In this document: one piece after another, positions 5,750 through 13,697 of the stretch
Layout: each line of letters begins with the position of its first letter
Position numbering within the stretch: the first letter of the stretch is position 1
Source: Burkholderiales bacterium
Lineage (GTDB): Bacteria; Pseudomonadota; Gammaproteobacteria; Burkholderiales; SG8-39
DNA: 64,000 bases
Assembly (NCBI GenBank): GCA_014860445.1
Contig: JACZJT010000008.1
Location: 62,001 to 126,000 of the forward strand
Direction of reading: 5' to 3'
Position numbers and translations under genes: made by a program
Notes under the pieces: model-generated
Seen by the model: only the letters and a program-made list of their open reading frames with translations
Databases searched by the model: none
Told to the model about the DNA's origin: nothing

Positions 5750-6199
5750 ATGAACAAACAATTCCTGATCTTTATATCCTGTGCCGCCGTTTTGCTTGTT
5801 GCGAACCCGGCATTCGCGTCCCAGTCCGGTGTGATCAAGACCGTGCAAGGGCAAGTACGCATCGAGCGCGGCGACCGCAATCTGGTAGCCAAGGTCGGAG
5901 ATCCCGTACAGGAACTGGACCGCGTAATGTCACAGAGCGAGAGCAGCGTCGGCATCAGCATGAACGATGAAACCCTGCTCAGCCTGGGCCCAAACTCCAT
6001 GCTGGTGATCGACAGGTACGCCTACGATCCGGTCACCAGAACAGGGCAGGTTGCGACTTCGATTTTGAAGGGCACGCTGCGTTATGTCACCGGCCTGATC
6101 GGTCGCGCGCATCCGGAGGCGATCAAGGTAACAACCCAAAATTCCACCATCGGCATTCGTGGCACGGAGTTCATTGTCCAGGTCCCGGTTGACAACTAA
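5750..6199 (+). CDS. FecR domain-containing protein (signal peptide)
   Basis: Signal peptide, then GVIKTVQGQVRIERGDRNLVAKVGDPVQELDRV...NSTIGIRGTEFIV typical of FecR domain. Confidence 0.85.
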   Translation: MNKQFLIFISCAAVLLVANPAFASQSGVIKTVQGQVRIERGDRNLVAKVGDPVQELDRVMSQSESSVGISMNDETLLSLGPNSMLVIDRYAYDPVTRTGQVATSILKGTLRYVTGLIGRAHPEAIKVTTQNSTIGIRGTEFIVQVPVDN

Positions 6200-6812
6200 G
6201 CGTCTCGCAATATTATTCGCCCTGTCGGGCGCCGTCCTGGCGGCGTTCTACTATTTTTATTGGGCGGGTCCTGTCGATCGAATAATATTGCTGCCCCAGG
6301 CTGACGGCACACCCAGCGCTGTCGTCGTGCAGTCCAAGTCCGGCGTCGCGTTCGTGCTCGAGCGACCCTACAGCGTAGCCACGGTGGGCACGCAGCGGAT
6401 TGGCGTCGAAAAAACCGACGAAGCCGCCGTCAAGACGCGCTACAAGGAATTGTTCGATGCGTTTCCGCAAAGGCCAAGATCTTTCCGCTTGTTCTTTGAA
6501 TCCGGCGGGATAAGGTTGATGCCTGAATCGGAGGAGCGGCTACCGCTCATAGTCGACGCGCTGAAGGATCTGACGGACCTGCCGGCTTCGGAATTGATCC
6601 TGATCGGCCATGCGGACGACGTAGGCAGCGACACCTTGAACGACGCACTTTCGCGTCGGCGCGCTGAAAGTATTGCAAGCACCCTCAAGGCCAAGCATAT
6701 CGATACCGCGCACGTCGCCATTGTCGGACGCGGCAGCCGCGATCCGCTGGTGTCCGTGAAAGAAGGCTCGCCTGAAGCAAGAAACCGACGCGTCGAGATT
6801 CGCCTGAAATAG
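6189..6812 (+). CDS. OmpA family protein (TTG start proposed)
   Basis: N-terminal TM, C-terminal OmpA-like domain LILIGHADDVGSDTLNDALSRRRAESIASTL...GRGSRDPL..EARNRRVEIRLK. Confidence 0.85.
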   Translation: MTTKRLAILFALSGAVLAAFYYFYWAGPVDRIILLPQADGTPSAVVVQSKSGVAFVLERPYSVATVGTQRIGVEKTDEAAVKTRYKELFDAFPQRPRSFRLFFESGGIRLMPESEERLPLIVDALKDLTDLPASELILIGHADDVGSDTLNDALSRRRAESIASTLKAKHIDTAHVAIVGRGSRDPLVSVKEGSPEARNRRVEIRLK

Positions 6813-10021: not shown

Positions 10022-10756
10022 CTAGTAGCTGCGACGCGGTCCGCTATAGGCGTCGTTCGGAAACACGAACGGCGGCTCGCGCCCAACCAATGCTTCGATC
10101 AACATCAGCTCCTGGTCGGTATGGTTGATGAACGGGGCCGCCAGAATGCTTTTTCCGCCCGATGGTTTCGCAAGTACATACAGCGGTCGATCATGATGCT
10201 TCGACACCACCGTCTCACGCGCGTTTGGGTCTTCCACTGCCGACACCTCCGTCGTCCCGTAGCAGGTGCAGAAATAGGTTTTCTCCGGATCGGCCTCCGC
10301 ATACCAGCCGGTGCCGCGTATACCTATAGTCGCGTTCGGCGTCGTGATCGTCAGTTTGGTATCCCGCGAAACCGAGAGCAGTTTGCCGGTGACCAGACGC
10401 AGCGCACCGAGTATCGGGCCTTTGACAGCGTCGACTATGCCTTCAATGGATAACTCACTATCCGCCCGGACGATCATGGCCTGGCCGCCGACGGCAAAAA
10501 TGAGTTCCGCGCCTTTTCCGGTACGGATGGTGTCGCCGGGCTGTATCTGGGCCGACGGATCGGCGGACTTGCCGTTCAGGGAAAAATCCCCGACAGCGCG
10601 GTAAATGCTGCGGCCCTTCGGCAATTTGTCCGGCCGTGATCCAAATACCGATTGCCCCAATGCAGTTTGCGGAATGGCGCCCGCGAGCATCCCCATCCCC
10701 AAGGCCCGTACCAGCCAGCGCCGACGGGGATCTTCAATCTCTTGCTGCGCAGCCAT
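10022..10756 (-). CDS. FecR domain-containing protein with Tat-like signal
   Basis: RRRWLVRALGMG followed by hydrophobic stretch; FecR-type GDFSLNGKSADPSAQIQPGDTIRTGKGAELIFAVGGQAMIVRADSELSIEG...ATIGIRGTG. Confidence 0.82.
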   Translation of the reverse strand: MAAQQEIEDPRRRWLVRALGMGMLAGAIPQTALGQSVFGSRPDKLPKGRSIYRAVGDFSLNGKSADPSAQIQPGDTIRTGKGAELIFAVGGQAMIVRADSELSIEGIVDAVKGPILGALRLVTGKLLSVSRDTKLTITTPNATIGIRGTGWYAEADPEKTYFCTCYGTTEVSAVEDPNARETVVSKHHDRPLYVLAKPSGGKSILAAPFINHTDQELMLIEALVGREPPFVFPNDAYSGPRRSY

Positions 10757-10796: not shown

Positions 10797-13697
10797 TTAG
10801 AATCGCATCAGGTACGCGAGCGTAAATTGCTGTGCCGTGTAGTTTGAACCGCCTCCTGTCCCCGGCGCCCCCAATCCCGGATATCCAACAAGACCGGTGT
10901 AATCCGGGGTTTGCGTGGGGCTTACGCGCGCCTGGCGCCAGGAAAAATCAAGGGAGTCCCGGTTCCCCAGCCTGAGGTTGTAGCCTACGGTCCATATCGT
11001 GGTGCGTGCCGCATATCGGTAGCCCATCAGCCCGTCGCGTGCGAATGCATCGTCGGCGACGACCACCTTGGCGATCGCCGCAGTATCAGCCAAGGGCAAT
11101 CCCGCGGATACCGCATCGCCGCGCCTGAGTTCACCGCCCAGGTACAGCGTACCTCGCTGGCTGAACTGATAATCGGCACTCAATTTGGCGGAGACATCGC
11201 GCGTATCAAACAGGGTGTTCGATGCAAATCGATTGTTTCGCGCCAGGACGCCGAAGAGTTGTATCCGGTCGGTGACGGGCGCCCGGACATTGACCCCGGC
11301 CGAGGAGCGATGGCCGCGCCGCATTCTTGAACCGGTGTCGTCCCAGTTCGCCCGGGCAAATACGCCCCAGGTCGGCGTTTCGAAACGTCCGTCGTTCCGA
11401 TATTGCAGCTCGGTGCCGATGCCGAGAGAAACCGCGTCCAGTGCCTCATACCTCTCGAACTTGTCGACATCCAGGGCGCCGGTCAGCTTCAAGCGGGTAT
11501 TGCCTGAGGAGAAGACCGTAGTTGAAATCCCGCTGCCGAGAAAGTAGGTGCCGTCGCTGAGTTTGGTGCTTGCGCCGCCGGTGCGCGACACATTGTCGTC
11601 CCAGCGGAAACCCGCCTCCAGCGCAATCGGATTTCTGGAATGGCTGGAGAACAGGCCATCGAGCTTGGGGTTGCCATCGAGGTTTGCACTCAGCCAGACG
11701 CGCATCGTGTGATCGTTGTAGTCGCTTGCGCGCCGGGTGGCGCTGAAGTCGAATCCGAAAATCAATCCGTGCGTCGTTAGAAACTCCGATCCTACGCCCA
11801 GCAAAAGACTGTTTCGATCGGCGACAGCTGGAACGACCGTGTAAGTCGGACCGGTTTCCATATCGGCATAGGCTATCGTTGCATCGCCATCCTTCGACAG
11901 CTCGTGGCCGTACTCCGCCCGGATATGGGGAAGGGCCAGGCCGAATTCGGTTTCATGAAAGGACTGCGCACGAATGCCGAGAGCGATTCGAAAAGACGTC
12001 AGCTTTTGCTCGAAGTAAGTGAGCGAACTCAGACCGGCCCCGGTTTCGGTCGCCTTGTGCAGCTTTCCATCGGAGAACTCAAGCCTGCCGTAGGGGGAGA
12101 GCAGTAGATTGCGTTCCTGGAATTGAACCCTGCCGCCGATCGAGCCGAAGACCTGGTCTCCATCGCGGTTGCTGCGGCCAAAGCTGCCGACGCGGGCGAC
12201 GTACCGCTCTGAACGGCTCTCCAATGCGCCATAGCCGAGGAGGCTGTCGACAAAAAAGTCCGGTACGGGTTGATAGCTGCCGTACACGGCAACAGAACGT
12301 CCCTCGTTCTTGCCGTTTGAGCCGTCGCTGCCGAGCGACACGCCTGCGCGGGCGTACCCGATTCCCATGCCGACGATCCAATCGTCGTTCAGGCGGGTGT
12401 CGTATCCTGCGGTAAGGCCGGAAGTCGCAAACCGCATTCCACTGCTCGTCGGCGAGGCGTCCTGTTTTCCGAAACTGACCATGCCATCCGTCCAGAAGCC
12501 GCCCGCCGGGGTTTGCGTATTCCCGGAGCGGGATTCGCTCTGGTAAAGCACCGGAATCGAACCCGTGGTCGCCAAATTCGCGAGCAGTCGGGCTGCGCTT
12601 GTTCCTTGAGTCCGGCCTGGCCCGTACAGCGTGTCAACTTCGGCCGCGGTTGCGTCAGATGCGCCACTCGGCTCGGATTGTCGCAACTGGTCGGGATCCA
12701 CCATTCCATAGTCCGGATAAACCAGAGCGGGCTGGCCTCGACTCGCCGCCGGGGTGGACAATTGGCGGATCTTTTGCCAACGAGGACTGATGCCGAAGGA
12801 CCGGGACTGATCGGATTTTGATGAAACTCGGTGCAGCGATTCAAGCCGACGCGAGATATTGCTTATCTGTGTCATGCCGAATTGATGCGCGGTCATCGCC
12901 TGTGATGTTATCAGCGAAACCACGTGCGGCTCGGTAGCGGGAGTCGGTCGCGCGACTACCGACACCGTGACCACGGCCGGGGCCGACGTCTCAGTGCTGC
13001 TGAAAGTTTCATAGGAAAAAGTATCGGTGCCCAGGTAGCCTGCGGCGGGGGTGTAGGTCACGATATTGCTCTGGATTGTCGCCGATCCTTTGCTCGGGGC
13101 CGCGGAAATCCGGATTCCCGCAAGCTCGGCGCCGGAGATGAACGGGGTGAGGTCCAGCGTTGTCGGTGTGTTGGCCTGTACCGACAGCACGGTCGCCTGA
13201 GCGACGGGAGGGGCCAGGGTTCCGACCCCGGTGGCTGTGACTGTGCGCTCAGTGATGCACCCTGCGCACGGAGGGTTGAGCGGAACATGCACCGTGGCCG
13301 TTTTCGTTCCCGCGGTCGCGGGGTTGAAGGAAACCAGGATGGTGCAATCGGCACCTCCCTGAATCGGGCCCATCGTCAGGCAACTGCCACCGCTGATAGA
13401 AAACTGCGAGGCATCTGCGCCGGTGATGGTGATGTCGCCCAGCGTGGCCTGCGTCGCGGCCGGGCCGGTGACGGCAGCGACATAGATGGTCTTGGCGCTA
13501 CTGGTCGTCGCAATGACCTGGTTTCCGAAACCAAGCGTAAAGGTGGCTGGTCCGAGGCCGTGATGCGCGACGGCCGCCTCCTGCTCGCTCGCGCCGACGC
13601 CTATGCAATTCGTATTGCCGCCGCATTCGGCTGATGCCTGGAAAGAGAACATCAGCATGACAAGCAGGTGCACAAGCAATAGCAGGTGTCTACGCAT
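10797..13697 (-). CDS. Secreted Ig-like / choice-of-anchor-D-like protein with autotransporter-type beta-barrel plus a second predicted C-terminal barrel
   Basis: Signal peptide; Ig-like YTPAAGYLGTDTFSYETF; autotransporter-like WTDGMVSFGKQ...GYDTRLNDDWIVGMGIGYA; protein ends ...FTLAYLMRF (terminal Phe beta-signal). Confidence 0.78.
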   Translation of the reverse strand: MRRHLLLLVHLLVMLMFSFQASAECGGNTNCIGVGASEQEAAVAHHGLGPATFTLGFGNQVIATTSSAKTIYVAAVTGPAATQATLGDITITGADASQFSISGGSCLTMGPIQGGADCTILVSFNPATAGTKTATVHVPLNPPCAGCITERTVTATGVGTLAPPVAQATVLSVQANTPTTLDLTPFISGAELAGIRISAAPSKGSATIQSNIVTYTPAAGYLGTDTFSYETFSSTETSAPAVVTVSVVARPTPATEPHVVSLITSQAMTAHQFGMTQISNISRRLESLHRVSSKSDQSRSFGISPRWQKIRQLSTPAASRGQPALVYPDYGMVDPDQLRQSEPSGASDATAAEVDTLYGPGRTQGTSAARLLANLATTGSIPVLYQSESRSGNTQTPAGGFWTDGMVSFGKQDASPTSSGMRFATSGLTAGYDTRLNDDWIVGMGIGYARAGVSLGSDGSNGKNEGRSVAVYGSYQPVPDFFVDSLLGYGALESRSERYVARVGSFGRSNRDGDQVFGSIGGRVQFQERNLLLSPYGRLEFSDGKLHKATETGAGLSSLTYFEQKLTSFRIALGIRAQSFHETEFGLALPHIRAEYGHELSKDGDATIAYADMETGPTYTVVPAVADRNSLLLGVGSEFLTTHGLIFGFDFSATRRASDYNDHTMRVWLSANLDGNPKLDGLFSSHSRNPIALEAGFRWDDNVSRTGGASTKLSDGTYFLGSGISTTVFSSGNTRLKLTGALDVDKFERYEALDAVSLGIGTELQYRNDGRFETPTWGVFARANWDDTGSRMRRGHRSSAGVNVRAPVTDRIQLFGVLARNNRFASNTLFDTRDVSAKLSADYQFSQRGTLYLGGELRRGDAVSAGLPLADTAAIAKVVVADDAFARDGLMGYRYAARTTIWTVGYNLRLGNRDSLDFSWRQARVSPTQTPDYTGLVGYPGLGAPGTGGGSNYTAQQFTLAYLMRF

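Follow-up and report, generated by a model that had tools for sequence, protein, structure and literature searches.

A textbook autotransporter ends with its one barrel, and the last strand of that barrel bears the signal that BAM reads. Multi-barrel chains are a known kind of outer-membrane protein (Solan et al. 2021, as cited in PMC8592465 and PMC11494523), and fused porins are treated in section 17 of Reddy and Saier 2016 (PMC4827864), where they are reported from alphaproteobacteria only and include no named autotransporter. GfcD/YjbH is presented as a predicted dual barrel of 12 and 13 strands, with a globular domain between the two barrels of GfcD in the passages concerned (PMC8592465, PMC11494523).

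The window analysed here is a stretch of 64,000 nucleotides from a Burkholderiales bacterium (SG8-39; GCA_014860445.1, contig JACZJT010000008.1, positions 62,001-126,000, forward strand). A sequence-only reading of one of its genes had listed a signal peptide, a choice-of-anchor-D-like domain and an Ig-like repeat, then an autotransporter-type barrel ending ...MRVWLSANLDG, and behind it a second segment of about 290 residues with a terminal-Phe outer-membrane end. All of these elements are present (Table 1). The signal peptide has, by eye, an RRH n-region, a hydrophobic core and ASA ahead of the likely cut; the PF03797 match covers residues 401-651 and is complete (profile 1-254 of 255, E 7e-43). 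From the end of that barrel the frame continues for about 290 residues to the C terminus, finishing in AQQFTLAYLMRF, or about 275 residues finishing ...LAYLMRF when counted from the inter-barrel linker.

Table 1 Features of the fused gene and its partner gene, in positions of the window
Feature	Positions	Strand	Basis or remark
Whole fused gene (protein P0001)	10797..13697	-	966 aa ORF without internal stop
Sec-type signal peptide, residues 1-23, MRRHLLLLVHLLVMLMFSFQASA	13629..13697	-	Read by eye
Choice-of-anchor D domain (passenger), residues 42-141	13275..13574	-	NF012200, E 5.7e-13
Big_9 Ig-like domain (passenger), residues 163-245	12963..13211	-	PF17963, E 1.6e-8
Predicted helix (residues 257-287), then a linker of low confidence as far as strand 1	12504..12944	-	AlphaFold2
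First barrel, autotransporter translocator, 12 predicted strands, residues 399-672	11682..12503	-	PF03797, AlphaFold2 and Foldseek
End of last autotransporter strand, TMRVWLSANLDG	11673..11708	-	Altered internal terminal signal
Inter-barrel linker, 17 residues (674-690)	11628..11678	-	Sequence; low pLDDT at model residues 424-436
Second barrel (residues 691-966), predicted to have 12 strands	10800..11627	-	AlphaFold2; stand-alone homologues with own signal peptide
C-terminal outer-membrane signal QFTLAYLMRF	10800..10829	-	Terminal-residue counts in relatives
Partner FecR-domain gene, 244 aa, Tat-type signal (DPRRRW...)	10022..10756	-	PF04773, E 3.8e-5

The expectation that two consecutive barrels would be unusual is borne out within the order. 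The frames of 28 other same-order PF03797 autotransporters were read past their Pfam matches, and 27 were measured (L195, near a contig edge and with unmappable coordinates, was left out). The stop lies 20-35 residues past the match in 26 of the 27 and 315 residues past it in the window's protein; because nearly all the measured autotransporters of the order stop so soon, the fusion is not a product of chance. The sole exception, L190, itself joins an autotransporter to a TonB-dependent receptor. At L211 (726-5999, minus strand), one frame encodes a PF03797 barrel with PATR repeats followed by the plug and barrel of a TonB-dependent receptor (PF07715, PF00593); this is a second autotransporter-plus-barrel fusion in the order, unrelated to the window's type.

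The whole protein as query gave no match against the genome contigs, and conservation in the second-barrel alignment is too low to help here. Because these two approaches gave too little, the conserved neighbouring FecR gene was taken as bait, which returned 80 loci. The fusion is found in 34 of the 80 and a near-complete stand-alone second barrel in about 30, with the stand-alone state unsure at L081, L090 and L123, where contig ends cut the loci; one further fusion, L153, comes from a different order. Another genus of the family (G063) has a full-length fusion homologue at 44-53% identity with the signal-peptide layout of the window's protein, and a second genome of that genus (G065) has a stand-alone second barrel with SDR and FecR neighbours as in G063. 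The fusion also occurs in another family of the order, in G467, G393, G244, G336 and G420, of which two are single-contig genomes, and its carriers include one complete chromosome, the genome GR16-43 (L120), and one isolate, Paucimonas lemoignei DSM 7445 (L106). The source genome is in 73 contigs, and a stop codon lost through an assembly or sequencing artefact would be one way to account for the long frame. Conservation of the fusion refutes this, since the same fusion is seen at 34 other loci and on chromosomes assembled as single contigs, and the inter-barrel gap is 15-21 residues and stop-free in all 34 fusions; we regard the chance of such an artefact as negligible. Because dozens of other bacteria carry it, the double-barrel arrangement is genuine and the original observation is confirmed. 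Separately, the loci L078, L108, L137 and L109 are titled Bordetella parapertussis or Mycobacteriaceae bacterium, yet the proteins they encode cluster with betaproteobacterial sequences of environmental origin; mislabelled metagenome bins would seem to lie behind the titles.

AlphaFold2 was run on residues 252-966 (715 residues) with a 64-row alignment; from the single sequence the pLDDT was 31 and the model unusable. The alignment-based model contains two separate sets of 12 strands, residues 399-672 and 691-965, with a low-confidence linker between them, and thus neither the one large barrel nor the soluble domain that the sequence-only reading had set against its proposal. Mean pLDDT is 82.6, with 422 of the 715 residues at 90 or higher and both strand runs mostly above 90; because pTM is 0.62, the model does not fix how the two barrels sit relative to each other. 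Ahead of the first barrel, residues ~310-394 have pLDDT below 50, and given this low confidence the region between passenger and strand 1 is no more than a candidate for holding a barrel-threading helix.

Foldseek comparisons support the first barrel as a closed 12-strand barrel, by the fit of the model to solved structures: TM-to-target values are 0.80 and 0.82 for NalP and 0.82 and 0.85 for BrkA, both closed 12-strand barrels, and EstA structures are matched as well. Twenty-four consecutive predicted strands might instead form one large barrel from both halves, and Foldseek does align the whole chain to 22-strand receptors too; however, the receptors among the best 50 matches reach a TM of at most ~0.28, with an rmsd of 14-20 A. 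Closed 12-strand barrels, by contrast, are fitted by the first half on its own with 3.5-4.6 A, and the halves occur apart in nature, making a 24-strand barrel very unlikely. For the second barrel, 10 of the 11 adjacent strand pairs show covariation above the median of non-adjacent pairs; the strand 1/12 pair is not above background, and strand 11/12 is low too. This barrel probably closes, judging from the prediction together with the existence of stand-alone relatives. By sequence and model, the chain would comprise two complete barrel domains and so belong with the multi-barrel outer-membrane proteins. The two-barrel interpretation is supported by the predicted strand sets, by relatives whose second half is a gene of its own and by the conservation of the fusion. 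From the domain order, the single conserved reading frame and the strand content, we consider it quite probable that an autotransporter has been fused ahead of an independently folding 12-strand barrel to give a double-barrelled outer-membrane protein.

The ends of the two barrels differ in their assembly signals. The reported BAM signal consists of a polar residue, x, Gly, x, x, and hydrophobic or aromatic residues at -2 and 0 (PMC10945584). Among single-barrel autotransporters, 22 of 26 are hydrophobic at position -2 as well as at 0 and 25 of 26 end in an aromatic residue, whereas the internal barrel of the fusions has Lys or Gln at -2 in 30/34 and Leu at 0 in 24/34, and keeps the hydrophobic -2/0 pair in only 1/34 (Fisher p 2e-11, which overstates independence because the sequences are related and is a guide only). 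In the window, TMRVWLSANLDG has L at the position of the final F of single-barrel autotransporters, followed by D-G. The second barrel ends in F in 33/34 fusions and 30/30 stand-alone relatives, with Tyr at -4 in 34/34 fusions, giving a Y-x-x-R-F-type end. In the fusions, the terminal signal of the first barrel is altered and that of the second is kept.

The altered signal, along with the background-level strand 1/12 covariation of the second barrel, counts in favour of a rival view in which only one barrel is inserted: either the autotransporter barrel would be non-functional, or the second half would form a beta domain in solution. Against this, the autotransporter barrels of the fusions show dN/dS of 0.02-0.38 and pLDDT mostly above 90, and the second barrel has a conserved terminal signal and homologues with signal peptides; we judge a single inserted barrel distinctly unlikely. 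The same dN/dS range holds for both barrels in pairs with computable dS (L096/L112 is saturated), and both halves are under purifying selection in these measurable pairs.

The search for genes that encode the second half alone, suggested by the sequence-only reading, was successful: several genomes have such homologues, at 35-47% identity, and their products are separate outer-membrane proteins, each bearing a signal peptide of its own. The second half has no match over cut-off to a curated family in Pfam or NCBIfam and none among solved structures. MtrB/PioB and SlipAM were considered because of weak matches and the CxxCH neighbour described below. PF11854 (MtrB/PioB) reaches 13 bits where its curated cut-off is 23, across 39 residues only; PF04575 (SlipAM, Slam) is matched in 5 of 42 members with E down to only 0.0013, and not by the window's barrel. 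Both assignments were rejected.

The existence of stand-alone second barrels indicates that this barrel works on its own, and it also bears on whether the fusion is a polyprotein, one precursor that is exported and then cleaved at the inter-barrel linker to leave two separate barrels. Many autotransporters are processed, and the linker is variable and of low confidence. Yet it has no evident conserved cleavage motif and its length is steady, at 15-21 residues, so that we hold cleavage to be unlikely. The linker is without a hydrophobic signal-peptide core, and one precursor is therefore needed in any case.

On the second-barrel tree, the stand-alone forms are nested among the fusions, with ~10 changes between the fused and stand-alone states (9 by eye without L090). 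The autotransporter halves of all 35 fusions form one group with weak support (71/32), outside which the nearest single-barrel autotransporters, L212 and L213, fall. A single fusion event, after which the autotransporter part was lost several times, would fit this pattern, the counts alone giving no direction of gain or loss.

The partner FecR gene starts 40 bp downstream of the fusion's stop on the same strand, with GAGGAGAG ahead of it. FecR is present in all 80 bait loci by construction; in loci found via the barrel, it adjoins the barrel gene except in three stretches where none was seen. In most loci a CxxCH/PKD-like lipoprotein gene lies between the barrel and FecR genes and reads with the barrel. 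This lipoprotein is ~650-680 aa long, with several CxxCH motifs and a PKD-like domain (L106:8804-10798, L120, L089, L124 and L109; it is longer in L027), and its cytochrome c matches are weak only. It was not found in the window's genome or in the 73%-complete G063, in a search with positive controls in three genomes. Stand-alone second barrels have the same FecR and lipoprotein neighbours as the fusions. These neighbours suggest that the second barrel and a periplasmic protein with a FecR domain are parts of one conserved envelope module. Elsewhere in the window, on the plus strand, a second FecR-domain ORF (5750-6199) overlaps an OmpA-domain ORF that lies in a different frame (6159-6812); the arrangement at 5750-6812 represents either overlapping genes or a frameshift.

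In the mechanism we propose for the double-barrelled protein, Sec would export the fused chain. Since the signal of the autotransporter barrel itself is altered, BAM would engage the chain mainly by the signal at the end of the second barrel, which is intact. The two barrels would come to lie side by side in the outer membrane with a short periplasmic linker between them, and the Ig-type passenger would be displayed through the first. We infer the membrane insertion of both barrels, and their function, along these lines. The fusion would then tie an adhesin-like surface passenger to the FecR module, which in most relatives also has the CxxCH lipoprotein. That a passenger translocator has ceded its assembly signal to a second barrel, which couples the passenger to the FecR module, and that such proteins form a distinct and widespread class, is a tentative reading to which we give slightly less than an even chance.

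A whole lineage keeps an autotransporter barrel mid-chain with its signal altered and an intact signal on the barrel behind it. If the proposal is true, BAM has to assemble both barrels of a single polypeptide that offers one strong terminal signal. The system makes testable how BAM handles two barrels per chain, their folding order and the sufficiency of an internal signal (PMC10945584). It would also link an uncharacterised envelope module, consisting of a FecR domain, a CxxCH lipoprotein and a 12-strand barrel, to surface display.

Among known systems, the fusion resembles type Va autotransporters (PF03797) in its signal peptide, N-terminal passenger and complete 12-strand translocator. Unlike them, it carries that translocator away from the extreme C terminus and without the terminal aromatic signal, since the final signal is altered and a second complete barrel stands behind. 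Intimin and invasin (type Ve) likewise have a barrel away from the C terminus, but there the passenger lies behind the barrel, whereas here it is N-terminal and a second barrel follows. The stand-alone relatives of the second barrel share the same kind of terminal signal but have their own signal peptide and no autotransporter part. GfcD/YjbH belongs to a capsule operon, with no passenger or autotransporter barrel described in the passages cited above, whereas the fusion belongs with a FecR module. Within the open-licence literature, mostly as titles and abstracts, we found no description of an autotransporter followed by a second barrel. Like the multi-barrel outer-membrane proteins, the fusion has, by sequence and prediction, two complete barrels in one chain; because such proteins are already known, the novelty lies in the autotransporter version only, and the placing of a second barrel behind an autotransporter seems to be new, widespread and little described.
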